Position numbers and translations under genes: made by a program. From the NCBI RefSeq assembly GCF_003095395.1, contig NZ_QEIJ01000003.1, forward strand, positions 310,001 to 374,000: 64,000 nucleotides of DNA, written 5' to 3'. Positions 34,590-63,497 of the stretch are shown here, piece by piece. The DNA comes from Microbacterium sp. Gd 4-13. GTDB taxonomy: Bacteria; Actinomycetota; Actinomycetes; Actinomycetales; Microbacteriaceae. Positions within the stretch are counted from its first letter, which is position 1, and the number at the start of each line of letters is the position of its first letter. The notes beneath the pieces were generated by a model. That model saw only the letters and a program-made list of their open reading frames with translations. It was not told where the DNA came from and did no database searches.

Positions 34590-36009
34590 GGTTCACGCTC
34601 CAATGGGTCCCCTCGGGACCGTCTTCGAGGACGATGCCGGCCGCCGCGATCGCATCGCGGATGCGGTCGGCCGTCGCCCAGTCCTTGCTCGCTCGCGCAT
34701 CGGCGCGTTGGTTGATCATGGTGAGCACGAGGGCGTCGAGGGCGGCGGCATCGGCGCCATCGCCGTCGTGCGACCATCGGGGGTCGAGGGGGTCGATGCC
34801 GAGAACGCCCGTCATGACGGCCACGGCGGCGAAGGCAGCGGCGACGGCGTCGCGGTCTCCGGTGTCGAGGGCGAGGTTGCCCTCGCGCACGGTCTCGTGG
34901 ATGACGGCGAGCGCCTGCGGCACGCCGAGGTCGTCGTCGAGGGCGGCGGCGAACCGCTCGGGCACCGCGGCATCCATCTTCCGTCCGCCCTCATCGGGGG
35001 CGAGCAGCCGCACCGCGCGCTCCTCGAAGGTGCGGATGCGCTCGAGAGCGGCCTCGGCCTCCGAGAACGCGCGATCGGAGATGTCGAGGCTCGAGCGGTA
35101 GTGGGCCGCGCCGAGCGCGTAGCGCACGACGAGCGGGTCGCGCTCGGCGAGCACGTCGTCGGCGAGCACGAAGTTGCCGATCGACTTCGACATCTTCTGG
35201 CCGTCGACGGTGACGAGTCCGTTGTGCACCCAGTACCGCGCGAACGCGTCTCCGGCGGCCGTCGACTGGGCGAGCTCGTTCTCGTGGTGCGGAAAGCGCA
35301 GATCGAGCCCGCCGCCGTGGATGTCGAACTCCGCGCCGAGGTAGCGGCGTGACATCGCGGAGCACTCGATGTGCCAGCCCGGGCGTCCGGGGCCCCACGG
35401 GGAGTCCCAGATCGCGCTGGTGGGCTCGCCCGCCTTGGCGCCCTTCCACAGGGCGAAGTCACGAGGATCGCGTTTGCCGCGGGGGTCGGCATCGGCGGCC
35501 GGCTCCATCGCGTCGAGCGACTGATGGGTCAGCGAGCCGTAGTCGCCCCACGACCGCACGTCGAAATAGACGTCTCCCGCGGCATCCGCGCTCGCTGCCG
35601 AGGGGTAGGCGTGCCCCGCGTCGATCAGCCGCGCGATGAGCTCCTGCATCTGCGGGATCGACGCCGTGGCGCGCGGCTCGTAGGTCGGCGGGAGAATCCC
35701 GATCGCGGCGTAGGCGCGTGAGAAGGCGAGCTCCATACGGTAGGCGAGCGCCCACCAGGGCTCGACGGCTGTCGCGTTGGCGAGCACCTTGTCGTCGATG
35801 TCGGTGACGTTGCGGACGAAGGTGACACGACCGAAGCGGTGCGCGAGCCAGCGGCGCAGGATGTCGAACGCGAGGGCCGCGCGCACGTGGCCGATGTGTG
35901 GTCCTGACTGCACGGTCGGGCCGCAGACGTAGATCGAGACGTTTCCGGGGTCGAGCGGGACGAAGTCGCGCAGGGCCTGCGCTTTCGTGTCGTACAGCCG
36001 GAGAGTCAC
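34582..36009 (-). CDS. cysS: cysteinyl-tRNA synthetase
   Basis: The 475-residue class I synthetase charges tRNA-Cys. The zinc ligands lie in YVCGPT (Cys29), WHIECSAM and [15 protein letters not shown] is the HIGH motif and KMSKSIGN is the ATP loop. The C-terminal anticodon-binding region ends with [40 protein letters not shown], the conserved terminus. The start MTLRLYDT is canonical. It overlaps rlmB at its end and is divergent from the EamA transporter gene. Confidence 0.97.
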
Positions 36010-48038: not shown

Positions 48039-50204
48039 ATGATCCAGGACGACGCGCTCGATTCAGGTCTCGGCGACGCGGATGACGACGACTTCGACGA
48101 AGCGGTCGAGGCGGCCGACGCCCAGCTTCCCGAGAATCGCTACCTCGACCGCGAGCTGAGCTGGCTGGCCTTCAATCAGCGCGTTCTCGAGCTGGCCGAA
48201 GACCCGACGCTCCCCACCCTGGAACGGGCGAACTTCCTGGCGATCTTCGCCAGCAACCTCGACGAGTTCTTCATGGTGCGCGTCGCGGGTCTCGCACGCC
48301 GCATCCTCACCGGTCTCGCCGTGCCGACGAACGTCGGACGCGCGCCGCAGGAGGTGCTCGCCGACATCTCGGCCGACGCGCACGCGCTGCAGTTGCGCCA
48401 TGCCGCGGCATGGAACGACCTGGTGCGCCCGGCGCTGTCCGACTCGGGCATCGACGTCGTCACCTGGGACTCGCTCGAGGACGGCGACCGCGAGACGCTC
48501 ACCGAGTACTTCCAGACGCAGGTCTTCCCCGTGCTCATGCCGCTCGCCGTCGATCCCGCGCACCCGTTCCCCTACATCTCGGGCCTGTCGCTGAACCTCG
48601 CCATCCGGGTGCGCAACGCCCGCACCGGTCGTCAGGAGTTCGCGCGCTTGAAGGTGCCGCCGATGCTCCCCCGCTTCGTCAAGGTCGCGGCGAGCGACCG
48701 GGTGCGCTACCTGCCGCTCGAAGAGCTCATCTCCAACCACCTGGGGCACCTGTTCCCCGGCATGGAGGTGCTCGACCACCACGCCTTCCGGCTCACCCGC
48801 AACGAAGACATGACGATCGAGGAGGATGAGACAGAGAACCTCATCCAGGCCCTCGAAGCCGAGCTGCTGCGGCGCCGGTTCGGGCCGCCGATCCGCCTCG
48901 AGATCACCGACGATATGGACGATCTCACCCTCGATCTGCTCATCACCGAGCTCGATATCACCGAGCAGGAGGTCTACCGCCTCCCCGGCCCGCTCGACCT
49001 GCGCGGCCTGTTCGACCTGTCGAAGATCGACCGGCCCGATCTGCACTACCCGCCCCACGTGCCCAAGACCGCCGCGGCCTTCCAGCCGGGCGAGCAGAAC
49101 GGCCGCGCCGACCTGTTCTCCGCGATCCGATCGGCCGACGTGCTGGTGCACCACCCGTACGAGTCGTTCGCAACGAGCGTGCAGGCCTTCCTCGAGCAGG
49201 CCGCACGCGACCCTCACGTGCTCGCCATCAAGCAGACGCTGTACCGCACGTCGGGAGACAGCCCGATCGTGCAGGCGCTCATCGACGCCGCCGAGGCCGG
49301 CAAGCAGGTGCTCGCCCTCGTCGAGGTGAAGGCGCGTTTCGACGAGGCGAACAACATCGTCTGGGCCCGCAAGCTCGAAAAGGCCGGCGTCCACGTGGTC
49401 TACGGCCTCGTGGGACTCAAGACCCACTGCAAGCTCGCCCTCGTCATCCGCGAGGAAGAGGGCGTGCTGCGCCACTACAGCCACGTCGGCACGGGCAACT
49501 ACAACCCCAAGACCAGCCGCATCTACGAGGACTTCGGCCTCTTCACCGTCGACGACCAGGTCGGCCGCGACCTCACGCGCCTGTTCAACGAGCTGAGCGG
49601 CTACGCGATCGAGAAGAAGTTCAAGCGCCTGCTGGTGGCCCCCCTCCACCTGCGCAAGGGGCTCGTACGCCTCATCGAGCGCGAGCGCGACAACGCCCAG
49701 GCGGGCAAGCCCGCGCGCGTGCGGATCAAGGTCAACTCGATGGTCGACGAGCAGATCATCGACGCGCTGTACCGCGCGAGCCAGGCCGGCGTGAAGGTCG
49801 AGGTGTGGGTGCGGGGCATCTGCTCGCTCAAGCCGGGCGTGCCCGGACTCAGTGAGAACATCACGGTGCGCAGCATCCTGGGGCGCTACCTCGAGCACTC
49901 GCGCATCTTCGCCTTCGAGAACGACGGCGATCCGCAGGTGTACATCGGCAGCGCCGACATGATGCACCGCAACCTCGACCGCCGCGTCGAGGCGCTCGTG
50001 CGCGTCATCGATCCCGCGCAGTTGCTCGAATTGAGCGCCCTCTTCGACCTCGCCATGAGCGACGGCACCAGCTCGTGGCACCTTCGGGCCGACGGCGAGT
50101 GGATCCGTCGGAGCGTGGACGCCGACGGCCGACCCCTCGTGGACATGCAGGACAAGACGATGGTGAACGTGCAGCGTCGGCGCCGGGCCCGGGCGGTTCG
50201 ATGA
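48039..50204 (+). CDS. ppk1: polyphosphate kinase 1
   Basis: The 721-residue enzyme reversibly makes polyphosphate from ATP. Domains in order are N ([48 protein letters not shown]), H, C1 ([41 protein letters not shown]) and C2. The autophosphorylated His is in [24 protein letters not shown], with [12 protein letters not shown] near the end. A PHO-box-like repeat and a -10 box at leaderless spacing precede it, consistent with induction by phosphate starvation as known for Streptomyces ppk. It overlaps the following Nudix gene by four bases. Confidence 0.97.
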
Positions 50205-51139
50205 CCGAGACCGCTGTCTATGCCGCCGGCGGTGTGGTGTGGCGAGTGGTCGACGGAAAGCTGCGCGTGCTGCTGATCACGCGCACGCGGTACCGCGACC
50301 TGACGCTGCCCAAGGGCAAGCTCGAGCCGGGCGAGACGCTCGCCGAGGCCGCCGTGCGCGAGATCCGCGAAGAGACGGGCCTGCGCGTCGCTCTCGGAGC
50401 GCCCGTGGGGGTCTCGCGCTACGCGATGCCCAACGGCCGCACGAAGATCGTGCACTACTGGGCGACCGAGGCGACGGATGCGGCGGTGCGCTCGACATCG
50501 TTCGTTCCCAACAAAGAGGTCTCCGCCGTCGAGTGGATGAGCGTCAAGAAGGCCCGCGCACGGCTGAGCTACCCCGTCGACATCGAGATCCTCGACGCGT
50601 TCACCGCGCTCGTCGACGGTGGCGTGCTGCGCACGTTCCCCCTCGTCGTGCTGCGCCACGCCAAGGCGAAGGCGAGGGAGGACTGGGACGGCGACGACGC
50701 GGCACGTCCGCTGAACACCCGCGGTCGGCGCCAGTCCAACGCGATCGTCGGACCGCTCCTGGCGTTCGGGGTGCGGCGCATCGTCTCCAGCCCCGCCGAA
50801 CGATGCATCCGCACGGTCATGCCGCTCTCGGCCGCTCTGGGACGCCGCGTCGACCGCTCCGACCTCATCAGCGAGCAGGCGTGGTCGGACGGCGTGTCAG
50901 ACCCCCGCACCGTCGTCGTCGAGCGAGTTCGCGCGCGCAAGCCCGTCGTGCTGTGCAGCCACGGACCGGTGCTCCCCGACATCCTGTCGGAGCTGGCGGC
51001 GGCCACGGGCACCCGCCCCGGCGCCTATCTCGGCAGCGCATCCACGCTGGACACCGCGGCCTTCTCGGTGGCGCATCTGTCGGTCGACAACCCCGGCGCG
51101 GGCATCGTCTCGATCGAGACGCACGACCCGAGGCTCTAG
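50201..51139 (+). CDS. Nudix hydrolase - histidine phosphatase fusion (MutT1-like)
   Basis: The 312-residue protein joins an N-terminal Nudix domain (Nudix box [23 protein letters not shown]) to a C-terminal SixA-like histidine phosphatase ([42 protein letters not shown]), the architecture of mycobacterial MutT1. That protein hydrolyses 8-oxo-dGTP and diadenosine polyphosphates. The start ATG overlaps the ppk1 stop (ATGA), so it is co-translated with polyphosphate kinase, suggesting a link to nucleotide or diphospho-inositol-type phosphate metabolism under stress. The longer frame from 50075 lies inside ppk1. Confidence 0.92.
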
Positions 51140-51141
51140 CG

Positions 51142-51675
51142 ATGACGGGTGCCCCCACGTCGCTCCGCCTCGCGTGGGGCCGCGTGCCGGCCGGCCTCGC
51201 GCGGCGCACGGCGGCCTGGGAGCTGATCCGCGACCTCGTGCCCGGGGCCGCGCTGTCGAACCGATGCGCGCGCTGCGGCGGCGACCACGGGCCGGTGCGC
51301 ATCGCCGGCGCGGAGTTCGAAGCATCCGTCACCTACGCCGGCGACCATGCGGTCGTCGCCGTCGTCTCGCGCGCGGAGGCCGCGGCCGTCGGCATCGACG
51401 CCGAGCTCGTCGACGATCCGCGCCGCGACGCGGTCGGCCTCGCGGGCGTGCTCGGCGAGCGGCCCGCCGACGTTCGCGCGTGGACGCGCGTCGAGGCGAC
51501 CCTCAAGGCCGATGGACGGGGGCTCCGCCTCGACCCCGCTCTGGTCGACGTGGTCGGTACGGCCGCGTCGTGGACCGCCCGCGTGCCCGGCCGGGCGTTC
51601 GCGCTCTCCGGCGTCGACCTCGACGGGCCGACCGGGATCGTGCTCTCCGCCGCTTTCGCGACGACGTCGGGCTGA
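51142..51675 (+). CDS. probable 4'-phosphopantetheinyl transferase-like protein
   Basis: A 177-residue protein with features of a short Sfp-type transferase: NRCARCGGDHGPVRI, VTYAGDHAVVAVVSRAEAAAVGIDAELVD (the magnesium G-I/V-D-x-E motif) and WTRVEATLKADGRGLRL (the W-x-x-K-E-A-x-x-K-A motif with Val replacing the first Lys). Such enzymes attach phosphopantetheine to carrier proteins. The only carrier domain in the window is in the Pls-type synthetase 4 kb away. It begins 2 bp after the Nudix gene. The altered KEA motif lowers certainty. Confidence 0.65.
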   Translation: MTGAPTSLRLAWGRVPAGLARRTAAWELIRDLVPGAALSNRCARCGGDHGPVRIAGAEFEASVTYAGDHAVVAVVSRAEAAAVGIDAELVDDPRRDAVGLAGVLGERPADVRAWTRVEATLKADGRGLRLDPALVDVVGTAASWTARVPGRAFALSGVDLDGPTGIVLSAAFATTSG

Positions 51676-51709
51676 CGGCCGGGACACGCGTCCCGACCGT
51701 CAGCGGTGG

Positions 51710-53131
51710 TCAGGCGCGGGTTCTCGAGCGCTGCCACCATCCGACGACGACGTCGATCACGACGAACGCCGCCAGCGTGTAGCCGACGAACGGCAACCAG
51801 AGCCCGACGGCGACCGCGCCGACGATCACGGCGACGAGGCCCCACCACGGTGCGCCCCGCAGCGCGCCGCGACGCGGGGGCGTGCCGACGAGAGCACCCG
51901 TGCGCGTGGGGCGCCGCTTCCACCACATCGCGTAGCCGAGCACGACCATCGCGGCGATCCCCGAGGCGATGACGAACATCACGATCTGGTTGACGAGGCC
52001 GAACATCGAGCCCATGTGGATGTCGATGCCCCAGCGCGCGAGCTTGGCGGGGAGCGAGAACTGCGCGAAGTCGACGCGGTCGACCACCTCGAGGGTGGAG
52101 CCGTCGACCGCGACGGCGTCGACCTCCGTGGGGAAGCTGCGCTGGATCTCCTTGACCACCCAGGCCGTGCCGGGCTCGGCGGGAGGTGTGATCTCCACGC
52201 GGCCGGTGTTGACGTTCACGCCCTGCGCGACGGCGAGGACGGCGTCGAACGTCGCGGGGTCGGCGCCACCGGTCGAGGCGCTCCCCCCGCCGTGGTGGTC
52301 GGCGTGCTCTCCGCCGCCGGCGTCCGCCTCACCCGAGAGGCTCGTACTCACCGAGGGGGTGCCCCAGTCGAGCGCCGCCCGGAGGTCGGTGACGTTCGCG
52401 CCGGCGTAAGCCGACCACGTGATGCCCGTGGCGGAGAGGAAGAGCGCGCCCACCAGCACCCAGATGCCGACGGAGGTGTGCCACGAGAGCACCCGACGGT
52501 ATCCGCGGTACGCGCGATTGGGGCGCACGAAGTCTTTCTTGGTCTTCGAGCGGCGGACGCGGATGATCCACAGAGCGAGACCCGCGAGGGCGACGACGCC
52601 GAGCCAGGATGCCGCGAGCTCGCTGTAGTAGCGACCGGGTTCGCCGAGATTGAGGTTGCGGTGCAACTGATCGACCCAGGTGCGCAAGGGCAGTGCCCCG
52701 CTGGTGCCGTAGACGACGAGGTCGCCACGGATCTGCCCCGTGCCGGGGTCGATGAAGACCGCGCGCGACTCGCTCTCGCCGAGTCCGTCCTGCGCGAACA
52801 GGATGCGGGTGGTGTCGCCGGGTTCGGGGGCCGGCCGCACCGCCGAGAGCGCGGCGGCGTCGCCGATATACGCCTCGGCGATCTCGATCTGGTCGCCGAG
52901 GGTCAGCGAGGTGCCGGTGACCGGGGCGCGCAGCTCATGGTCGTAGACGACCTGCTCGACCTGCGGGGTCAGGGCGTAGAGGGCGCCGCTCACGGCGGCC
53001 ACGAAGATGAACGGGCCGACGAGAATGCCGGCGTAGAAGTGCAGGCGGAGCAGCAGCTGGCCGAACCAGCCTCTCTGCTTCTTCGCCTCGGGAAGCGCCC
53101 CGCCGTCGGGGCGCGCGAGTGTCGTGGTCAT
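51710..53131 (-). CDS. PepSY-associated membrane protein with His-rich loop
   Basis: The 473-residue protein has four PepSY-TM type membrane helices (LRLHFYAGILVGPFIFVAAVSGALYAL with a conserved His; SWLGVVALAGLALWIIRV; VLSWHTSVGIWVLVGALFLSATG; QIVMFVIASGIAAMVVLGYAMWW) and two more hydrophobic segments at the end. PepSY-like domains lie outside the membrane. A loop near residues 265-280 reads GGGEHADHHGGG, a plausible metal-binding stretch. Relatives are often linked to iron or copper handling and ferric reductase-like roles. The start at 53131 fits the conserved N-terminus. It converges with the transferase gene. Confidence 0.83.
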   Translation of the reverse strand: MTTTLARPDGGALPEAKKQRGWFGQLLLRLHFYAGILVGPFIFVAAVSGALYALTPQVEQVVYDHELRAPVTGTSLTLGDQIEIAEAYIGDAAALSAVRPAPEPGDTTRILFAQDGLGESESRAVFIDPGTGQIRGDLVVYGTSGALPLRTWVDQLHRNLNLGEPGRYYSELAASWLGVVALAGLALWIIRVRRSKTKKDFVRPNRAYRGYRRVLSWHTSVGIWVLVGALFLSATGITWSAYAGANVTDLRAALDWGTPSVSTSLSGEADAGGGEHADHHGGGSASTGGADPATFDAVLAVAQGVNVNTGRVEITPPAEPGTAWVVKEIQRSFPTEVDAVAVDGSTLEVVDRVDFAQFSLPAKLARWGIDIHMGSMFGLVNQIVMFVIASGIAAMVVLGYAMWWKRRPTRTGALVGTPPRRGALRGAPWWGLVAVIVGAVAVGLWLPFVGYTLAAFVVIDVVVGWWQRSRTRA

Positions 53132-53258
53132 GGGGAGGTCTCTCGTTTCGGGGTCGTCGACGACGGCGCCGCGCACACCCGTGAGGGAGCACGCGGAGCG
53201 GACGCGTCGATCGCAGAAGAAGGGGTCGTCGAAGGGTCGGTGCGCGGCGCTGCCGTGC

Positions 53259-53885
53259 TCAGACCGCGGGGACGACGGGCGGACCCCTCCGGCGCGATGA
53301 CGCGACGACGACGACCGACAGGGCCGGTCGTACCGAGACGACCCCCGCCCGCACGAGGCGGGGCACCGGGGGCGAGAAGATCGAGGGAGTCAGGATGCGG
53401 CGGCGCACCCACGACAGGAGTCGGCGGGCGAGCTCGATGAGCCGTCGCCCGGTGGCCTCACCGCGGTGAACCGCTGCGACGGTGACGATCGCGGCGATCG
53501 CGTGCGCGAGCCACATCGCGGCGCCGGCACCGGTGACGACCGTCTCGGCCGCGGCATCCATCGGCATGCTCAGGCCCACCTGGTGCACGTGGGCGCGGTT
53601 CGTCGCCACGCCGCTGGAGGGCGCGAAGGTTCCGAGCACGAACAGCGTGTGGAACAGCGTCTGACTGATGCCGACGGCGAGCCCCAGACGCACCGCCGAG
53701 AGGCTGCGACCGGCGAGGACGACACAGACCGGCACCGAGATCATGAGCGGCACGACGATGCCGATCCAGCCCGGCATCGCGCCTCCGGCCGACACGTGCG
53801 AGAGGAGGGCGACGAAGGTCGCCACGCACGCCGCGAGCGACCCGCGCACGAGGCGAGACACTCGCAACCGTCGCATGGCGTCCAT
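53259..53885 (-). CDS. four-helix membrane protein of unknown function
   Basis: Of 208 residues, the first 130 or so contain four membrane segments (SLAACVATFVALLSHVSAGG, WIGIVVPLMISVPVCVVLAG, LGLAVGISQTLFHTLFVLGTF, GAAMWLAHAIAAIVTVAAVHRG) with conserved-looking His in loops (AHVHQVGLSMPMDA). The tail is Arg/Val-rich. No family was recognised. Its His-Met loop and its place upstream of the PepSY gene (about 127 bp gap) hint at metal-related function. The start could also be ATG 53876 or a codon up to 53909. Confidence 0.6.
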   Translation of the reverse strand: MDAMRRLRVSRLVRGSLAACVATFVALLSHVSAGGAMPGWIGIVVPLMISVPVCVVLAGRSLSAVRLGLAVGISQTLFHTLFVLGTFAPSSGVATNRAHVHQVGLSMPMDAAAETVVTGAGAAMWLAHAIAAIVTVAAVHRGEATGRRLIELARRLLSWVRRRILTPSIFSPPVPRLVRAGVVSVRPALSVVVVASSRRRGPPVVPAV

Positions 53886-53909
53886 TCTGGCAGTACGCCG
53901 ACGCCGCAC

Positions 53910-55217
53910 TCAGCCGAGCGGCGGCAACGGCGTCCTGTCGATCCACGCGCCCAGCTGCGCCACCGCGGCGGCTCCGCCGGCCGTCGCGACCGCGCGGCGG
54001 AAGTCGTCGGTCACCACGGTGCGGTGCCGATGCACCGCGGTCCAGTCGCGCAGCATCCGGAAGAACGTCTCGTCGCCCAGGAGCGTGCGTAGCGCGTGGA
54101 GGGTCAGCGCGCCGCGCTTGTAGACGACGTCGTCGAACATGCGGTCGGGTCCGGGGTCGGCCAGAACGAGATCCTGCGGTTCGGCGGCGAGACGGGCGTG
54201 GTACGACGCGGCGAGCGCGGCGGCACTGGTGGAACCGGATGCTTCCGACCACACCCATTCGGCGTAGCAGGCGAAGCCCTCGTTGAGCCAGATGTCTTCC
54301 CAGCGCGCGAGCCCGACGCTGTTGCCGAACCACTGGTGGGCGAGCTCGTGGGCGACGAGTCGCTGCGACGCGGGCGCGAGATGGTTGGAACCGAAGACGG
54401 CAAGCCCCTGCGCCTCGAGCGGGATCTCGAGCACGTCGTCTGTGACCACGAGTGCGCAGTCGGCCTGCGGGTAGGGTCCGAACGCCTCGCCGAACACGCG
54501 CAGCATGCGCGGCACGTCGGCGAAGGCCGACGCGACCGCCTCGCGGAGGGCCGGCGGTGCGCTCACGCGCACAGTGGGAACGGCGGCGACTCCCGTGCCG
54601 GCGAGGGGTGTCGTGCGGTAGCGGCCGATGTGCACGGCCGCGAGATAGGTCGCGGTCGGGGTGTCGGAGGCGAACGTCGTGGTGACCGTTCCGCCGCGGC
54701 GCACGGGCGCACTCGGCGTGCCGGTCGCGGCGGTCTCGTAGCCGTCCTCGGTCGTGATCTCGAGCCGGTAGCGCGCACGGTCGGCGGGCCGGTCGTTGCA
54801 CGGGAACCACGTCGGGGCTCCCGTGGGCTGAGCGGCGACGAGCGCCCCGTCGTCGAGCTCCTCCCAGCCGATGGCACCCCATCGGGAGCGACGAGGGGCG
54901 GGCTGCCCGGCGTAGACGACCTCCACGGTGAAGCGCTCCCCCGCGGCGATCGGGGCGACGGGCACGACGCGGAGCTTGCGGGGCCCGGGGCGGTATGACG
55001 TTCTCGCCTCGCCGTTCACGCGCACCCGCGTCGCACGAAGCCCCACCAGGTCGAGCGTGAACGCCCGAAGAGCGACGTGGGCGACCGCGTGCAGAGTCGC
55101 CACCCCCTCCAGGCGGTTGGTTCGCACGCGGTAACCGATCCGCAGGTCGTACGACTCGACGCCGAACGTCGGATCGCCGCTCTGGGGCGTGTACGGGTCG
55201 TGCGCGAGCTCTGTCAC
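53910..55217 (-). CDS. M1 family metallopeptidase
   Basis: A 435-residue zinc aminopeptidase: N-terminal beta domain (YDLRIGYRVRTNRLEGVATLHAVA), PTWFPCNDRPADRARYRLEI, substrate region EAQGLAVFG (in place of the usual GAMEN), zinc motif HELAHQWFGN plus ENEGFA-type downstream Glu (WLNEGFACYAEW), and YKRGALTLHALR with the catalytic Tyr. It is shorter than full PepN, lacking the large C-terminal domain. It starts at GTG 55217, 69 bp after the Pls-type synthetase on the same strand. Characterised enzymes that degrade epsilon-poly-lysine are zinc aminopeptidases, so a role with that product is plausible. Confidence 0.9.
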   Translation of the reverse strand: MTELAHDPYTPQSGDPTFGVESYDLRIGYRVRTNRLEGVATLHAVAHVALRAFTLDLVGLRATRVRVNGEARTSYRPGPRKLRVVPVAPIAAGERFTVEVVYAGQPAPRRSRWGAIGWEELDDGALVAAQPTGAPTWFPCNDRPADRARYRLEITTEDGYETAATGTPSAPVRRGGTVTTTFASDTPTATYLAAVHIGRYRTTPLAGTGVAAVPTVRVSAPPALREAVASAFADVPRMLRVFGEAFGPYPQADCALVVTDDVLEIPLEAQGLAVFGSNHLAPASQRLVAHELAHQWFGNSVGLARWEDIWLNEGFACYAEWVWSEASGSTSAAALAASYHARLAAEPQDLVLADPGPDRMFDDVVYKRGALTLHALRTLLGDETFFRMLRDWTAVHRHRTVVTDDFRRAVATAGGAAAVAQLGAWIDRTPLPPLG

Positions 55218-55285
55218 TGGGCCTCTGTCGGGGTGTCCGTGGCGCCGGGCGTGCGGAGCCGTTCTCTGGTGTTCACCCCAGCCTG

Positions 55286-58200
55286 TCATTGTGTCGACTG
55301 GTAGGCGCGGGCCTTGACCGCGCGCCACGGACCGATCGGGTTTCCGCTCCACCGCGATCCGACCGGGACGGTCTCGCCGCGCATGACGAGCGACGCCGGC
55401 CCGACCGTCGCGTGGGCGCCGATCGCCGCGGCCGGCAGCACCACGCTGTGCGGGCCGAGGGTCGCCCCCGCCTCGAGCTCCACCGCATCCATGCTCATGA
55501 TCCGGTCGTGGAAGAGGTGCGTCTGCACGACGCATCCGCGGTTCACGGTCGAGGCATCGCCGAGCGTCACGAGGTCGGGCTCGGGCAGCCAGTAGCTCTC
55601 GCACCAGACGCCCGTGCCGATCTTCGCGCCCAGCGATCGCAGCCACATCGCCAGGGCCGGGGTTCCCGTCGCGGCGCGGGCGAACCACGGTGCGGCCACC
55701 ATCTCGGTGAAGGTGTCCGACACCTCGGTGCGCCACACGAAGCTCGACCAGAGCGGCTGCTCGCCCGCACGGATCGGACCGACGATGATCCACTTCGCCA
55801 GGGTCGACACCGTCGCCGCCACCGCACCGGCAGCCAGCATCACGACCCCCGACAGCAGGAGCGCACCGACGGGGCCGAGAGAATCCCACAGCGCCGCGAG
55901 GGCGAACAGCACCAGCACACCGATCGCGCACGTGACGAAGACCGGCACGACGCGGCAGATCTCCCACAGTGCCCGGGCCACGCGCAGGCCCGGCGTCGGG
56001 CGGTACGTGCGCGATTCGTCGCCGGCGGCCGAGAGGCGCCGCAGCCGCACGGCGGGCGAACCCAGCCACGACGACCCCGCCTTCGCCTTGATCGGCGCCG
56101 AAGACAGAACCGCGACGAGACCGTCGCGCGGCACGCGATGACCGGGCGCCGCCATGCCGGAATTGCCGAGGAAGGCGCGCTTGCCGATCCGGACGGGACC
56201 GATCCGCAGCCATCCGGAGTGCAGCTCGTAGGAGGCGACCATCGTGTCGTCGGCGAGGAAGGCGCCGTCCTCGATCCGCGCCATCGACGGGATCAGCAGA
56301 ACCGTCGATGCCTCCACGTCGCGGCCCACGCGGGCTCCCAGCATCCTGAGCCACACCGGGGTGAACAGACTGGAATACAGCGGGAAGAGGATCGTGCGCG
56401 ACGCGTCGAGCAGCCGCTCGATCGTCCATGCCTGCCAGGCCACACGACTGCGCACGGGGTGCACCCCCTCGCGGAGGGCGATCGAGAGCACCCGCACGAG
56501 CACGACGACCGAACCCGCGAAGACGACCCCCACCGCGAGGACCGCCGGCACGAGCCACACGAGGGCGGCGGCGAGCGCCGAGGCGAGGTCTGCCGCGCCG
56601 CGCATGCCCTGCGCGAGCACCAGCCCGCCGACGGCGAACGCGACGAGCGGCAGCAGCGCGAGTGCGGCGGCCGACGCGGCATACCCCCACAGCCAGCGGT
56701 GAGCGGCCGGAGGTCTCTCGGCCGGCCATCCGCCGCCCGCACCGCCGACCCGCACAGCGGGCGAGCCCGCCCAGGTCTGGTCGGCGCGCACGCGGCCGAA
56801 CACGGCCGAGCCCGGCGCGATCTCGGCGCGCTGCCCGATCCGGGTTCCCGGGGCGAGGGTGCTGCGCGCGCCGATGCTGGCTTCGGCGCCGATGCGCACT
56901 CGTCCGATGCGCACGAGGTCGCCGTCGATCCAATACCCCGTGAGGTCGACCTCGGGTTCGATCGATGCGCGGTCGCCGATCTCGAGCATGCCGGTCACCG
57001 GCGGGAGCGTGTGCAGGTCGACGTCACGGCCGATCTTGGCACCGAGCGCGCGGGCGTAGTACGTCACCCACGGGGCGCCGGCGAGGCCGACCGCATCGAC
57101 CTGGGCCGCGATCTGCTCGGCCAGCCACAGCCGCAGGTGCACCGAGCCGCCGCGCGGGTAGTCGCCGGGTACGAGGCCGGCGAGCAGAAGCCGGGCGGAT
57201 GCTGCGGCGATCGCCATGCGCCCGAACGGCGTCGCGAACACGACGAGGCCGATCACGATGAGCGGCCACGGCGCGGTCGGGAGAGCGTCGAAGCCGGGCA
57301 CGAGCTGCAGGATGGCGCTGGCGGTCAGCAGGTAGAGCAGCCAGCGCACGCCCGAGAGGATGAACAGCGGAACGCCGAGGAGGGTCTGCGCCCACTGCGT
57401 CGCGCGCGGTGTCGGCAGCGGGCGGCGGAATCCCGCGTTCGCGTCGTCATCGCCGAGCGGCCCGAGCGCCTTCGCCATCGCGCCGAGCCGGGGGACGTCG
57501 TAGATGTCGGCGACCGAGAACTCCGGCACGCGCGCGCGGATGCGCGACACGAGCTGAGCTGCGGCGAGCGAGCCACCGCCGAGGTCGAAGAAGTCGGCCT
57601 TGCGGTCGGGCACCGGCATGCCGAGCACGGCCTGCCACTGCTCGGCGAGCCAGGCCTCCGCGGGCGAGAAGTCGACGGCGACCGGGGCGTCCACACCCGG
57701 GAGCGGCCACGGGAGGGCGGCGCGGTCGACCTTGCCCGAGGTGCGCACGGGCAGTTCGTCGACGACGGCGAGGAGCGGAATGGTCGCCGCCGGCAGTCGT
57801 TCGCCCAGCGCCGCCCGCGCGGCCGAGCGGTCGAGCTCCGCACCGCCTTCGGTCACGAGGTAGCCGACGAGGATCGGCACGCCGGCCTCGGTGTGGCGCA
57901 CGGCGACGGTGGCGGCGGCGATCCCGGGCAGGTCTTGCAGGGCCGACTCGACCTCGCCGAGCTCGATGCGGCGCCCGCCGACCTTGACCTGGTCGTCGGC
58001 GCGGCCCTGGAAGACGAGGCCCTCGGGGTCGAAACGCACCAGGTCGCCCGAGCGGTAGGCGCGGTCCCAGCCCAGCGTGGGCATGGGCGCGTACTTCTCG
58101 CGATCCTTCGCGGGGTCGAGGTAGCGCGCGAGTCCCACCCCGCCGATGATCAGCTCGCCGATGCCGCCCTCCGCGACCCGGTGGCCCGCGTCGTCGACCA

Positions 58201-59266
58201 CCGCGAGCGCCCACCCGTCGAGCGGCAGACCGATGCGGACGGGCATGGATCCGTCGAGCGGGGCGCCGCACGCGACGACGGTCGCCTCGGTCGGTCCGTA
58301 GGTGTTCCACACCTCGCGCCCCTCGGCCACCAGGCGTGCCGCGAGCTCGGGCGGGCACGCCTCACCGCCGAAGATCAGCAGGCGCACATTCTCGATCGCG
58401 TCGCCCGGCCACATCGCGGCGAGCGTCGGCACCGTGGAGACGACGGTGATGCCCTGACGCAGCAGCCACGGCGCGAGGTCTTCGCCCGACCGCACGAGCG
58501 AGCGCGGCGCGGGCACCAGGCAGGCACCGTGCCCCCACGCGAGCCACATCTCCTCGCACGACGCGTCGAACGCGACCGACAGGCCCGCCAGCACCCGGTC
58601 GCCCGGGCCGAGCGGAGCATCCTGCAGGAACATGCGCGCTTCCGCGTCGACGAACGCCGCCGCCGATCGGTGCGAGACCGCGACCCCCTTCGGCACTCCC
58701 GTCGACCCGGAGGTGAAGATGATCCAGGCGTCGTCGTCGACCGTGGGCGGGGCGACGATGGGCGTCGATCGGGTGCTCGGATGCGGCGCATCTCCGGCGA
58801 ACAGCGTGGAGACCGGCAGCTCTTCGACAGCGACATCGGCATCGTCGTCGTCCACGGCCGGCGTGTAGTCGCCGGTGCCGGTGATCACGCCCGCGACCCG
58901 CGCCTCCCCGAAGACCAGGCGCGCGCGCTCCTCCGGGTCGTCGGCGTCGACCGGCACGTAGGCCGCACCGGCGGCGAGCACGCCGAGGATCGAGACGTAG
59001 AGCTCCTTCGAGCCAGACGGCATCCGCACCCCGACGCGGTCGCCACGCTCGACGCCCGCCTCGTGCAGGCGTGCGGCCGTCTGCCACACGCGCGCCAGCA
59101 GCTCGCGGTAGCTCAGCGCGCCCGATCCGTCGTCGACGGCGGAGGCCTCGGGATGGCGTGCGGCGACCTCCGCCAGTACGTCGATGAGGGTACGCGGAGC
59201 GGGTGCGGAGGCGGAGCGGTCGAGCACGGACTGCGCGCCGAGGGGAGGAGAGTCCGTCACGGGCAT
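55286..59266 (-). CDS. Pls/PosA family non-ribosomal peptide synthetase
   Basis: The 1326-residue membrane enzyme has an adenylation domain (residues 30-510: IIFTSGSTGVPKGVAVSH, NTYGPTEATV, YRSGDLVRFDPEG, TSGKVDRAALP), a carrier domain (DFFDLGGGSLAAAQLVSRIRAR, Ser near 567) and six membrane helices alternating with three C-terminal left-handed beta-helix/condensation-like domains (ARALGAKIGRDVDLHTLP, GSPAVRVGG, RMLGARVGRDVEAS, RSLGAKIGTGVW). This is the layout of epsilon-poly-L-lysine synthetase, which polymerises one amino acid without templating. The residue used cannot be read by eye. ATG 59266 lies six bases after a TAGGCT box; GTG 59272 is an alternative. Confidence 0.9.
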   Translation of the reverse strand: MPVTDSPPLGAQSVLDRSASAPAPRTLIDVLAEVAARHPEASAVDDGSGALSYRELLARVWQTAARLHEAGVERGDRVGVRMPSGSKELYVSILGVLAAGAAYVPVDADDPEERARLVFGEARVAGVITGTGDYTPAVDDDDADVAVEELPVSTLFAGDAPHPSTRSTPIVAPPTVDDDAWIIFTSGSTGVPKGVAVSHRSAAAFVDAEARMFLQDAPLGPGDRVLAGLSVAFDASCEEMWLAWGHGACLVPAPRSLVRSGEDLAPWLLRQGITVVSTVPTLAAMWPGDAIENVRLLIFGGEACPPELAARLVAEGREVWNTYGPTEATVVACGAPLDGSMPVRIGLPLDGWALAVVDDAGHRVAEGGIGELIIGGVGLARYLDPAKDREKYAPMPTLGWDRAYRSGDLVRFDPEGLVFQGRADDQVKVGGRRIELGEVESALQDLPGIAAATVAVRHTEAGVPILVGYLVTEGGAELDRSAARAALGERLPAATIPLLAVVDELPVRTSGKVDRAALPWPLPGVDAPVAVDFSPAEAWLAEQWQAVLGMPVPDRKADFFDLGGGSLAAAQLVSRIRARVPEFSVADIYDVPRLGAMAKALGPLGDDDANAGFRRPLPTPRATQWAQTLLGVPLFILSGVRWLLYLLTASAILQLVPGFDALPTAPWPLIVIGLVVFATPFGRMAIAAASARLLLAGLVPGDYPRGGSVHLRLWLAEQIAAQVDAVGLAGAPWVTYYARALGAKIGRDVDLHTLPPVTGMLEIGDRASIEPEVDLTGYWIDGDLVRIGRVRIGAEASIGARSTLAPGTRIGQRAEIAPGSAVFGRVRADQTWAGSPAVRVGGAGGGWPAERPPAAHRWLWGYAASAAALALLPLVAFAVGGLVLAQGMRGAADLASALAAALVWLVPAVLAVGVVFAGSVVVLVRVLSIALREGVHPVRSRVAWQAWTIERLLDASRTILFPLYSSLFTPVWLRMLGARVGRDVEASTVLLIPSMARIEDGAFLADDTMVASYELHSGWLRIGPVRIGKRAFLGNSGMAAPGHRVPRDGLVAVLSSAPIKAKAGSSWLGSPAVRLRRLSAAGDESRTYRPTPGLRVARALWEICRVVPVFVTCAIGVLVLFALAALWDSLGPVGALLLSGVVMLAAGAVAATVSTLAKWIIVGPIRAGEQPLWSSFVWRTEVSDTFTEMVAAPWFARAATGTPALAMWLRSLGAKIGTGVWCESYWLPEPDLVTLGDASTVNRGCVVQTHLFHDRIMSMDAVELEAGATLGPHSVVLPAAAIGAHATVGPASLVMRGETVPVGSRWSGNPIGPWRAVKARAYQSTQ

Positions 59267-59272
59267 TTTCAC

Positions 59273-59278
59273 AGCCTA
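59273..59278 (-). promoter_or_regulatory. -10 element of the Pls-type synthetase gene
   Basis: TAGGCT on the minus strand ends six bases before ATG 59266, suggesting a leaderless message. Its -35 region lies close to the PHO box of the divergent pstS gene. Confidence 0.45.
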
Positions 59279-59314
59279 TTGAACCGGCCCCCAGACCCGC
59301 GGAATCCCGGGCCT

Positions 59315-59332
59315 GTTCACCGTCCGTTCACC
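59315..59332 (+). promoter_or_regulatory. PHO box upstream of pstS
   Basis: Two exact GTTCACC units start 11 bp apart (59315 and 59326), the standard actinobacterial PHO box. A single GTTCACG follows at 59368. It lies in the intergenic region shared with the poly-amino-acid synthetase. Confidence 0.85.
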
Positions 59333-59375
59333 TCTTCAGCCCGGTTGCTTAAGAGTCGCTGTCTAGCGTTCACGA

Positions 59376-59412
59376 CGAACCCTGCACCGGGTTTCGAACC
59401 CTGCACCGGGTT
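59376..59412 (+). repeat. two tandem 19-bp palindromic units in the pstS leader
   Basis: CGAACCCTGCACCGGGTTT is repeated directly (59376-59394 and 59395-59412). Each unit is itself an inverted repeat (AACCC/GGGTT), giving two small hairpins or one longer alternative structure about 35 bp before the pstS GTG. Confidence 0.75.
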
Positions 59413-59445
59413 CTTCTCTTCCCTCACACGCGAAGGATTCACATC

Positions 59446-60549
59446 GTGAAGCTCAACCGTTTCGCCCAGTTCGGCGCCGTGGCTGCTGTCGCAGCCCTCG
59501 CCCTCGCCGGGTGCGCCTCGAACGAGGCTCCCGCCGACTCCGGCAACGACAGCTCGTCCAGCACCGGCACGCTCACCGGCACCCTCGTCGGCGGCGGCGC
59601 CTCGTCGCAGGAAGTCGCCGTCCAGACCTGGACCGCGGGCATCCAGACGGCCAACCCCGAGCTGACGGTCAACTACGACGCCGCCGGCTCCGGCGCGGGC
59701 CGCGAGTCGTTCCAGGAGGGCGCTTTCGCCTTCGCCGGCTCCGACCGCGCGTTCAGCGCCGAGGAGATCGAAGAGGGCCCGTTCGGCTCGTGCGCCGAGG
59801 GCTCCGACCTCGTCGAGCTGCCGACCTACATCTCGCCGATCGCCGTCGTCTTCAACCTCGAGGGCGTCGACTCGCTGAACCTGGACCCCGCCACTCTGGC
59901 CGGCATGTTCGCGGGCACCATCACGACCTGGAACGACCCGGCCATCGCCGCGTTGAACGCCGGCGTCGAGCTCCCGAGCACCGCGATCACCGCCGTGCAC
60001 CGTTCGGACGACTCGGGCACCACCGAGAACTTCACCGACTACCTCTTCGCAACCGCCCCCTCGGTCTGGACCAGTGAGCCCGACGGCGTCTGGCCGCTCT
60101 CCGGCGGAGAAGCCGCCAACGGCACCTCGGGCGTCATCAGCGCCGTCCAGGGCGGACAGGGCACCATCGGCTACGCCGACGCCTCGCGCGCCGGCGACCT
60201 CGGCACCGTTGCGGTCAAGGTCGGCGAAGAGTTCGTCCCCTACTCCCCCGAAGCCGCCGCGGCGGTCGTCGACGCCTCGCCCGAGGCGGAGGGTCGCGCC
60301 GCGACCGACATCGCCATCGAGATCGACCGCACCACCACCGCGGCCGGTGCCTACCCGATCGTGCTCGTCAGCTACCTCATCGGCTGCGCCGACTACGAGG
60401 ACGAGGCCGCAGCCGCGAACGTGAAGGGCTTCTTCACCTACGCAGCCAGCGAAGAGGGCCAGGACGCCGTCGCCGCTGCCGCCGGCAGCTCGCCGATCTC
60501 CGACACCCTGCGCGAGCAGATCACCACGGCGATCGACGCCATCAAGTAA
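59446..60549 (+). CDS. pstS: phosphate-binding lipoprotein PstS
   Basis: The 367-residue exported protein captures phosphate for the Pst importer. A lipoprotein signal (KLNRFAQFGAVAAVAALALAG-C, Cys23) is followed by a Ser/Thr linker and the binding protein fold with phosphate-contact motifs VGGGASSQEV, YDAAGSGAGRESF, AGSDRAFS and VHRSDDSGTTENF. Start GTG 59446. It is first in pstSCAB, behind a PHO box and palindromic repeats. A strong stem-loop after its stop probably makes pstS mRNA more abundant than the downstream genes. Confidence 0.97.
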   Translation: MKLNRFAQFGAVAAVAALALAGCASNEAPADSGNDSSSSTGTLTGTLVGGGASSQEVAVQTWTAGIQTANPELTVNYDAAGSGAGRESFQEGAFAFAGSDRAFSAEEIEEGPFGSCAEGSDLVELPTYISPIAVVFNLEGVDSLNLDPATLAGMFAGTITTWNDPAIAALNAGVELPSTAITAVHRSDDSGTTENFTDYLFATAPSVWTSEPDGVWPLSGGEAANGTSGVISAVQGGQGTIGYADASRAGDLGTVAVKVGEEFVPYSPEAAAAVVDASPEAEGRAATDIAIEIDRTTTAAGAYPIVLVSYLIGCADYEDEAAAANVKGFFTYAASEEGQDAVAAAAGSSPISDTLREQITTAIDAIK

Positions 60550-60557
60550 GACCCCAC

Positions 60558-60595
60558 AGATGCCCGGTCCGGCCGTAAGGTCGGACCGGGCATCT
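60558..60595 (+). terminator. stem-loop between pstS and pstC
   Basis: A perfect 14-bp stem (60558-60571 with 60582-60595) and 10-nt loop stands 9 bp after the pstS stop. With few U residues it is likely a partial terminator or mRNA stabiliser within the operon. Confidence 0.75.
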
Positions 60596-60648
60596 TCAGG
60601 CCCGCAGCGCTCCTCCCCGACACCCGACTCCGACCGAGAATCGAAGCA

Positions 60649-61602
60649 ATGACCACAACACCGGCGGTCACCAGGACCGAGCCCCCGAAAGCGAAGAGCC
60701 GCCCGGGCGATCGATGGTTCTCGGGAGCGGCGCTGTTCGCCGGCTCGATGATCCTCGTCACCCTCGCCGCCGTCGCCATCTTCCTGATCGTGCAGTCGCT
60801 CCCGGCGTTGTTCGCCACGAACGCGGACGCCTCGATCCTCCCCGCCGACTTCTGGTCGTACGTCGGCCCCCTCGTCTTCGGCACCGTGTGGGCAGCCGCT
60901 CTCGCGCTGCTCATGGCGGTGCCGTTGTCGATCGGCGTCGCTCTCTTCATCTCCCACTACGCGCCCCGCCGACTCGCCCAGGCTCTCGGCTACGTCGTCG
61001 ACCTCCTTGCCGCCGTCCCCTCGGTCGTCTTCGGCCTCTGGGGCATCGGCGTCCTCGCCCCGGCCGTCCAGCCCGTCTACACCTGGCTGGTCGACAACGC
61101 CGGGTGGTTCCCGCTGTTCGCAGGCCCCGTCTCCAGCACCGGCCGCACGATCTTCACCGCCGCCATCGTGCTCGCGGTCATGGTCACCCCGATCATCACG
61201 GCGATCTGCCGAGAGATCTTCCTCCAGACGCCCAACCTGCACGAAGAGGCCGCGCTCGCGCTCGGCTCGACGCGCTGGGAAATGGTGCGGATGGCGGTCT
61301 TCCCCTTCGCCCGCAGCGGTATCGTCTCGGCCTCGATGCTCGGCCTCGGCCGCGCCCTCGGCGAGACCATGGCCGTCGCCATGGTGCTCTCCGTCTCGGG
61401 AGGCGTGACCTTCGCGCTCCTCACCCCCGACAACCCCAACACGATCGCCGCGAACATCGCGCTGAGCTTCCCCGAGGCCTACGGGCTCAACGTGAACGTG
61501 CTCATCGCCACCGGCCTCGTGCTGTTCGTCGTCACATTCGCCGTCAACGCGCTCGCTCGCTACATCGTGAGCCGGCGCAAGGAATTCTCGGGGGCCAACT
61601 GA
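60649..61602 (+). CDS. pstC: phosphate ABC transporter permease PstC
   Basis: The 317-residue inner-membrane subunit has six helices, starting LFAGSMILVTLAAVAIFLIVQSLPALF, and the ABC coupling (EAA) loop EEAALALGSTRWEMVRMAVFPFARSGI before GLGRALGETMAVAMVLS, both hallmarks of PstC. It forms the channel with PstA. ATG 60649 is 14 bp after GACCGAGAATCG-type sequence and fits the conserved N-terminus. One base separates its stop from pstA. Confidence 0.96.
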   Translation: MTTTPAVTRTEPPKAKSRPGDRWFSGAALFAGSMILVTLAAVAIFLIVQSLPALFATNADASILPADFWSYVGPLVFGTVWAAALALLMAVPLSIGVALFISHYAPRRLAQALGYVVDLLAAVPSVVFGLWGIGVLAPAVQPVYTWLVDNAGWFPLFAGPVSSTGRTIFTAAIVLAVMVTPIITAICREIFLQTPNLHEEAALALGSTRWEMVRMAVFPFARSGIVSASMLGLGRALGETMAVAMVLSVSGGVTFALLTPDNPNTIAANIALSFPEAYGLNVNVLIATGLVLFVVTFAVNALARYIVSRRKEFSGAN

Positions 61603-61603
61603 C

Positions 61604-62698
61604 ATGTCGACTACAACGCTGACCCCCGCGCGGCCGTCCGTCTCGACCGACGGCCTGACCAACGGCCGCCTTCCGGGCTGGTCGCCCTGGGTGCTTCTGA
61701 TCGGCTCCCTGGCCGTCACCTTCGCCGCGTTCGGCATCATGGCCAGTGCGTCCGGCGCCGGCCTCAACATCGCCGGGGCCGCCGTGCTCGGCGCGCTCCT
61801 CTACCTCGTGCTGATCTTCACGATCTCCGCGATCGTCGAGGGCCGCCGCAAGGCCGTCGACCGTCTCGTGACCGGCGTCGTCACGGCCGCCTTCGCCGTG
61901 GCCATGGTTCCGCTCGTCTCGGTCGCGGTCACGGTGATCGTCGCCGGCGCCCCGAACTGGACGGCGACGTTCTTCACCTCCTCGATGCGCAACGTGGTGG
62001 GAGAAGGCGGCGGTGCGCTCCACGCGATCGTCGGCACGCTGCTCATCACGCTCGCCGCGGCCGTCATCTCGATCCCGATCGGCATCTTCACCGCGATCTA
62101 CCTGATCGAGTACGGCAAGGACAACCGCCTCGCGAAGGGCATCACCTTCCTCGTCGACGTCATGACGGGCATCCCGTCGATCGTCGCCGGCCTGTTCGCC
62201 TACGCCCTCTTCGCGCTGTTCTTCGGCCCCGGCATCCGGCTCGGCATCGTCGGTGCGGTGGCCCTCGCGGTGCTGATGATCCCCGTCGTCGTCCGCTCGA
62301 CCGAAGAGATGCTCCGCCTCGTACCCAACGAGCTGCGCGAAGCGGCGTACGCGCTGGGCGTGCCGAAGTGGCTGACGATCGCCAAGGTCGTCCTCCCGAC
62401 GGCCATCGCGGGAATCACGACGGGCGTGATGCTGTCGATCTCGCGCGTGATCGGCGAGACGGCTCCGCTGCTCATCACCGCGGGCGCCACAGCATCCATG
62501 AACTACGACCTGTTCAGCGGACGCATGATGAGCCTCCCCGTCTTCACCTACACCCAGTACATGAACCAGGGCATCCCGGCCGAGGCGTTCGTCGGTCGCG
62601 CGTGGGCAGCAGCCCTCGCGCTGATCGTCATCGTCATGGTGCTCAACATCGTGGCGCGCGTCATCGCCAAGCTGTTCGCCCCCAAGACCGGCCGCTGA
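61604..62698 (+). CDS. pstA: phosphate ABC transporter permease PstA
   Basis: The 364-residue permease carries about eight hydrophobic segments; the PstA core begins [26 protein letters not shown] and includes [29 protein letters not shown] and the coupling loop [28 protein letters not shown], ending [14 protein letters not shown]. The N-terminal 70 residues with two extra helices are longer than in E. coli but usual for actinobacteria. ATG 61604 starts one base after the pstC stop. Confidence 0.96.
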
Positions 62699-62717
62699 AC
62701 CGAAAAGAAAGCCTGAA

Positions 62718-63497
62718 GTGTCCAAGAGCATCGAAGTCAACGACCTCAACGTCTACTACGGCGACTTCCTCGCCGTCGAGGGCGTCTCCCTCAACATCGA
62801 GCCCCGCACGGTCACGGCCTTCATCGGTCCCTCCGGTTGCGGCAAATCGACCTTCCTCCGCACGCTCAACCGCATGCACGAGGTGATCCCGAAGGCCCGC
62901 GTCGAGGGCAAGGTGCTGCTCGACGGCAACGACCTCTACGGCCCCGGTGTCGACCCGGTGCTCGTGCGCCGTCAGGTGGGCATGGTGTTCCAGCGCCCCA
63001 ACCCGTTCCCGACGATGTCGATCAAGGAGAACGTGCTCGCGGGCGTGAAGCTCAACAACAAGCGCATCTCGAAGTCCGATGCCGACGCTCTCGTCGAGAA
63101 GTCGCTGCAGGGCGCCAACCTCTGGAACGAGGTCAAGGACCGCCTCGACAAGCCCGGCTCGGGTCTCTCGGGCGGGCAGCAGCAGCGTCTGTGCATCGCT
63201 CGCGCGATCGCCGTCTCACCCCAGGTCATCCTGATGGACGAGCCTTGCTCGGCTCTCGACCCGATCTCGACCTACGCGATCGAAGAGCTCATCTCCGAGC
63301 TCAAGAACGACTACACGGTCGTCATCGTGACCCACAACATGCAGCAGGCCTCGCGCGTGTCGGACAAGACCGCGTTCTTCAACATCGCCGGCACCGGCAA
63401 GCCCGGCAAGCTGATCGAGTACAACGACACCTCCTCGATCTTCACGCAGCCCAAGGTGCAGGCCACCGAGGACTACGTCTCGGGTCGCTTCGGTTGA
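62718..63497 (+). CDS. pstB: phosphate ABC transporter ATP-binding protein PstB
   Basis: The 259-residue ATPase powers phosphate import: Walker [11 protein letters not shown] (residues 35-44), Q-loop [18 protein letters not shown], signature [14 protein letters not shown], Walker [14 protein letters not shown] and H-loop [13 protein letters not shown], the exact PstB pattern. The GTG start at 62718 is preceded by GAAAGAAAG. It is last in pstSCAB and followed by a strong terminator. Confidence 0.98.

Follow-up and report, generated by a model that had tools for sequence, protein, structure and literature searches.

The window analysed here, a 64,000-nucleotide stretch of Microbacterium sp. Gd 4-13 (contig NZ_QEIJ01000003.1, positions 310,001 to 374,000), contains a gene, pls, for a synthetase of the Pls/PosA family. 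The gene occupies 55286..59272 on the (-) strand and encodes 1328 amino acids from a GTG start or 1326 from an ATG two codons further on (59266), the latter being the length given in the initial annotation. Domain matches located an adenylation (A) domain (57713..59173, (-); AMP-binding, E 7.6e-69) and a carrier (T) domain (57464..57652, (-); PP-binding, E 1.7e-10). TIGR02353 covers the C-terminus (residues 628-1313) with 717.4 bits, well above its cut-off of 423.1, and this is the one gene in the genome that exceeds the cut-off. The call of a Pls-type synthetase in the initial annotation is thus borne out, and the carrier serine on which that call had been staked is Ser568, kept in 81 of 81 aligned Pls sequences. 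By sequence, the closest solved relative of Pls is Streptomyces albulus epsilon-poly-L-lysine synthase (A domain, PDB 7wew; E 2.9e-185), which likewise combines A and T domains with a membrane C-terminus. The closest named relatives, among the best 80 of more than 594 stretches, are from Microbacterium, with up to 84% identity; these 80 nearest relatives are the related loci referred to below. Genes for Pls are common in actinobacteria. Opposite pls runs a long, arginine-rich open reading frame (ORF) of 1386 codons (55289-59449, (+)), in all likelihood a shadow frame such as arises opposite coding DNA rich in GC.

Ten pocket residues of the A domain, mapped by motif after the GrsA scheme and lying at 236, 237, 240, 279, 300, 302, 324, 332, 333 and 514, read DAESIGTVVK. 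The ten are invariant in the 81 aligned sequences, and 7wew has the same letter at every position in an alignment read by eye. Asp and Glu are reportedly conserved at pocket positions 1 and 3, and the second position sets the size of the substrate: lysine enzymes have Ala, the ornithine enzyme PosA has Met, and diaminobutyrate and diaminopropionate enzymes have Phe (PMC10522769). The window Pls has Ala. It therefore differs at this position from Acinetobacter baumannii PosA, a delta-poly-L-ornithine synthetase with which it has family and layout in common. Because the pocket equals that of S. albulus Pls and has Ala at the size-setting position, L-lysine is the best substrate prediction, and the predicted product is most likely epsilon-poly-L-lysine. 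The initial annotation had left the product open and had named a pocket incompatible with a diamino acid as the outcome that would speak against it; the specificity residues it pointed to give a lysine-type pocket and favour L-lysine.

The membrane-bound C-terminal part of Pls (55289..57460, (-)) appears to alternate between hydrophobic regions and soluble domains, three of each, the soluble ones being C1 to C3. Hydropathy placed the strongly hydrophobic regions at about residues 630-692, 861-936, and 1101-1165. In an AlphaFold2 model of residues 605-1328 from a 38-sequence alignment (pLDDT 79.5, pTM 0.83), long helices precede strand-rich domains, and confidence drops in the last domain. A structural comparison confined to C1 showed, among the chains ranked by Foldseek, a resemblance to serine acetyltransferases (Z 15.0; 95 residues aligned at rmsd 1.9), and the sequence profile matched hexapeptide proteins at C1 and C3. 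Members of the Pls/PosA family are expected to have three acetyltransferase-like domains, set between membrane helices that come in pairs. Of the layout first proposed, a membrane part with three beta-helices, the three hydrophobic regions stand and the hexapeptide (left-handed beta-helix) fold is supported by fold and sequence in C1 and by sequence in C3, whereas C2 has no separate support. H754, H1252, and H1255 are among the invariant residues of Pls and may be catalytic.

A gene for a short-type M1 zinc aminopeptidase with the motif HELAH-18-E (53910..55217, (-); Pfam Peptidase_M1, E 1.4e-28) follows pls on the same strand, as the initial annotation had it. Its GTG start lies 68 bases from the pls stop, and an alternative ATG at 55289 would make the gene overlap that stop as ATGA. 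In all 80 related loci an M1 homologue lies 3' of pls and shares its strand; 75 of them are no more than 300 bases away and the remaining five lie at 626-2173 bases, and all 80 homologues have the zinc motif HExxH-18-E. Among 20 further loci of the class, mostly from other families, the homologue is found downstream of pls in 19, L251 being the one where none was detected; in two f35 g100 loci it lies about 1 kb from pls and has a different anchor motif. GxMEN is the motif with which M1 aminopeptidases anchor the amino end. The window protein has an IPLEAQ-like sequence where this motif is expected, and its Glu may serve as the anchor instead. The best solved matches are 6a8z and 6iff, a short M1 zinc metalloprotease from Deinococcus, which aligns with the window protein almost from end to end (E 1.6e-54); this enzyme is not known to act on isopeptide polymers. 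In S. albulus too an aminopeptidase, PldII, is coupled to pls, and the ATGA overlap would be in keeping with pldII, whose coupling is reported to be translational (PMC9223678).

Converging on the pls operon, 51142..51675 on the (+) strand encodes a short protein that is probably a phosphopantetheinyl transferase (PPTase) of the Sfp type. By itself it lies far from the Pfam model (16.5 bits, below the cut-off of 25); of 20 proteins in its family, 10 do match PF01648 (E ≤0.01; best E 4.3e-15). The best solved match of the family profile was Sfp (E 4e-5; 1qr0 and 4mrt, from Bacillus). Sfp-type PPTases are marked by a metal-binding Asp/Glu motif and by W-x3-E-A-x2-K. The window protein contains GIDAE and WTRVEATLK; searched as strict patterns, G-I/V-D-x-E and W-x3-E-A-x2-K turn up in 13 of 20 related loci, and the Asp, Trp, Glu, and Lys of these motifs are invariant in 20 of 20 aligned sequences. 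It thus shares the motifs of Sfp but differs from it in being short and below the Pfam cut-off. Of 119 genomes sampled from the genus, the same 69 gave matches to both PPTase and pls, and the other 50 gave neither (pls, E ≤1e-100; PPTase, E ≤1e-5; count uncorrected for relatedness). By tables read by eye they share a contig in 67 of the 69, G057 and G062 being the exceptions. Given this co-occurrence, uncorrected as it is, a chance neighbour of pls is unlikely. The PPTase gene is found in 20 of the 80 related loci, ten of which have neither pst nor ppk in the flanks examined. A PF01648 search of the genome returned one gene, on another contig; this search is blind to the window PPTase, so an equally divergent gene could escape it. 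With the carrier-activating enzyme so identified, all three genes of the poly-amino-acid locus proposed at the outset are present, and that proposal is supported.

Upstream, in the spacer between pls and the divergent phosphate uptake operon pstS-pstC-pstA-pstB (59446..63497, (+)), we found a perfect PHO box, GTTCACCGTCCGTTCACC (59315..59332, (+)), which matches at 14 of 14 positions the form described for S. coelicolor, direct repeats of GTTCACC in a 7-4-7 arrangement (PMC4415409, PMC9019756). It is the sole perfect copy found in the 3.43-Mb genome. With up to two mismatches allowed, the pattern has 56 genome sites versus 4 for the backwards pattern, an excess that may be due partly to codon bias and partly to other Pho sites. 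In a scan without a control that covered 14 of 18 pstS-like places in 11 of 12 genomes (among them G136, which has no pls match), 13 of the 14 places had a box scoring 12 of 14 or better. Because every scanned genome has at least one pstS place with such a box, the GTTCACC-type box is probably the Pho signal in those 11 genomes.

The same signal was enriched upstream of pls in relatives. Positions in these scans were counted from the first matched residue, which is no proven start codon. In 69 of 81 upstream sequences left after removal of near-duplicates, k-mer counting over the last 200 bases ahead of pls ranked GTTCACC first among 7-mers (22 of 69; 1.2 expected). PHO boxes stand at pls in 19 of the 80 related loci versus 11 of 1600 random 400-base windows. 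An order-level scan counted 65 of 73 pls-positive genomes and left out the window genome, G317 (98% identical), G045, G177 and G271 (match without a start), and G151, G353, and G246 (partial or split matches). In 27 of the 65, a half-site is found no more than 250 bases from pls, compared with 4 in the far window and with a shuffle mean of 1.95 (highest of 200 shuffles, 6). Boxes of at least 12 of 14 lie near pls in 10 of the 65, compared with 0 in the far window and 0.03 in shuffles, and these ten are spread over four families (f1, f6, f14, and f18). The 65-genome set holds at least two loci with pstS nearby (L116 and L117), and 38 of its stretches are too short to show this; its species may overlap with those of the 80 named loci, so the two sets are not strictly independent. 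Outside pst-linked loci, half-sites are found upstream of pls in 28 of 70 cases versus 31 of 318 other ORFs (Fisher p 9e-9), and boxes in 15 of 70 versus 12 of 318 (Fisher p 5e-6), both p values being uncorrected for relatedness. Of the 12 control boxes, 9 belong to the pst-linked loci L006-L014 and probably include the pstS boxes. We rejected chance as the source of the boxes at pls, since random windows, shuffles, far-upstream windows, and the upstream regions of other ORFs are all poorer in them.

We interpret the locus as an epsilon-poly-L-lysine operon, formed by a Pls with a lysine pocket and an M1 peptidase and served by a co-inherited PPTase, and give this reading, which is drawn from sequence comparison, a probability of about 0.88; its phosphate part is less certain. 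The PPTase would load Ser568 with phosphopantetheine, and the A domain would adenylate L-lysine and then load it onto the carrier. The membrane-bound C1-C3 part would join the lysines through epsilon-amide bonds, and the chain would exit the cell. The M1 aminopeptidase would trim the polymer from its amino end, which would set its length or protect the cell. With less certainty than these steps, phosphate starvation would raise pls expression via the PHO box between pls and pstSCAB.

Much of the gene content has precedent. Pls homologues in Microbacterium and other coryneforms, the pls-peptidase operon, and the lysine pocket have already been reported, and Corynebacterium variabile pls made epsilon-poly-L-lysine in S. 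coelicolor (PMC8117764). The window resembles these systems in the operon and the pocket and differs from the account of them in that the available parts of that paper mention neither a PPTase partner nor a PHO box; the word "phosphopantetheinyl" is absent from its whole text. No published report of a PHO box at pls was recognised in a literature search that had most subscription journals outside its reach. The part without a recognised precedent in that search is the candidate phosphate control of pls. Phosphate-limited cultures have been noted for epsilon-poly-L-lysine in S. albulus (PMC9695796), and RegX3-SenX3, alkaline phosphatase D, and a phosphate-binding protein were up in a high producer (PMC10157215). 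The trigger of pls expression is stated to be unknown in PMC8117764. Phosphate starvation is a candidate trigger, and the phosphate-linked sequence upstream of pls, which is present also where pst is not adjacent, makes that question testable by low-phosphate culture. The co-inherited PPTase is a likely missing partner for pls expression in other hosts.

The pls-M1-PPTase block of Microbacterium falls precisely at the junction of a nudix gene with pstSCAB and faces the PHO box of pst; in several genera, pls would have PHO boxes of its own. The phosphate-starvation regulon of several families in the order, and of some Rhodococcus-like relatives, could have epsilon-polylysine synthesis among its outputs, a tentative proposal to which we give a little less than even odds. 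If it is true, the polycation would serve in phosphate starvation, for example by binding anionic polymers or by killing competitors for phosphate, and silent pls genes might be awakened by low phosphate.

Several observations weigh against the operon reading, most of them against its phosphate part. The box in the window and in the nearest relatives is oriented toward pstS. In the pls-less genomes of the genus, ppk, nudix gene, and pstS are contiguous, without the pls block, in 13 of 14, and a perfect box stands about 1 kb after ppk, between nudix gene and pstS, in 9 of 14; the block thus fills the nudix-pstS junction, through gain here or loss elsewhere, and the box is present without it. 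An extra gene separates the box from pls in six Microbacterium loci. A clear box is missing from most pls upstream regions, as the counts of 19 of 80 and 10 of 65 imply. Among the further class loci scanned, the 16 outside f45 score 7-11 of 14 (f41, 7; f37, f35, and f22, 8-11), and scores of 12 or 13 occur only in f45, at three of its four loci. No PHO box stands in the S. albulus pls promoter as published (best 9 of 14), unlike the window spacer with its perfect copy. The box might accordingly serve pstSCAB alone, with pls a mere neighbour outside phosphate control. The pls-less junctions, the orientation, and the intervening gene all favour this explanation, which we consider close to an even bet. 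It does not account for the excess of half-sites and boxes upstream of pls outside pst-linked loci, nor for the 27 of 65 near windows with half-sites against 4 of 65 far windows.

The peptidase step has weaknesses of its own. No clear signal peptide was found in the window M1 protein by eye or hydropathy, whereas PldII, which may or may not belong to family M1, is reported to lie outside the membrane (PMC9223678). The M1 protein could be an ordinary cytoplasmic aminopeptidase that trims no polylysine, and its nearest solved relatives are catalogued as zinc metalloprotease. The homologue 3' of pls in 80 of 80 loci and the coupling of the PldII aminopeptidase to pls in S. albulus (PMC9223678) make this improbable.

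As to the product, epsilon-polylysine is here a prediction from genes, and C. variabile under its own control made none (PMC8117764), which also speaks against the operon reading. Polymerisation of another diamino acid (ornithine, diaminobutyrate, or beta-lysine) or of a mixture is very improbable: pocket codes foretell substrate activation only and the family makes several polymers (PMC10522769), but at all ten positions the code matches S. albulus Pls, the size-setting residue being Ala, and the peptidase context suits Pls and reportedly differs for three other synthetases (PMC8117764). PosA further differs from the window system in that no co-transcribed neighbours are reported for its locus (PMC10522769).

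On the far side of the PPTase gene lie ppk (48039-50204) and a NUDIX/histidine-phosphatase gene, together spanning 48039..51139 on the (+) strand. Both ppk and pst are near pls in 10 Microbacteriaceae loci (L005-L014); in the flanks examined elsewhere among the 80 loci, pstS was found only at L083 and ppk only at L052 and L054, within 7 kb of pls. We regard pst and ppk as context and not as members of the pls system, since 13 of 14 pls-less genomes have ppk, nudix gene, and pstS in an unbroken row. The M1 and PPTase genes are separated by two features on the (-) strand, a PepSY_TM gene at 51710-53176 and an ORF for a small membrane protein at 53259-53909. No homologue of either was found in the examined flanks of the 80 related loci, and they were rejected as operon members in favour of a local insertion.

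The extra gene of the six Microbacterium loci (L006, L008, L009, L012, L013, and L014) is lysine/alanine-rich, has a SAP/Rho_N-like end, and lies at about 6.0-7.0 kb, with the pst PHO box on one side and pls, whose strand it shares, on the other. An ARAGORN tRNA-Ile (gat) at 34933-35029 (-) is 97 bases long, longer than usual, and lies inside a coding-looking frame, so the call may be false. In Nocardia, several loci (e.g. L036, L041, L047, L063, and L071) have GTTTGCC-4-GGTAACC upstream of pls, about where others have the PHO box, possibly as the site of another regulator.

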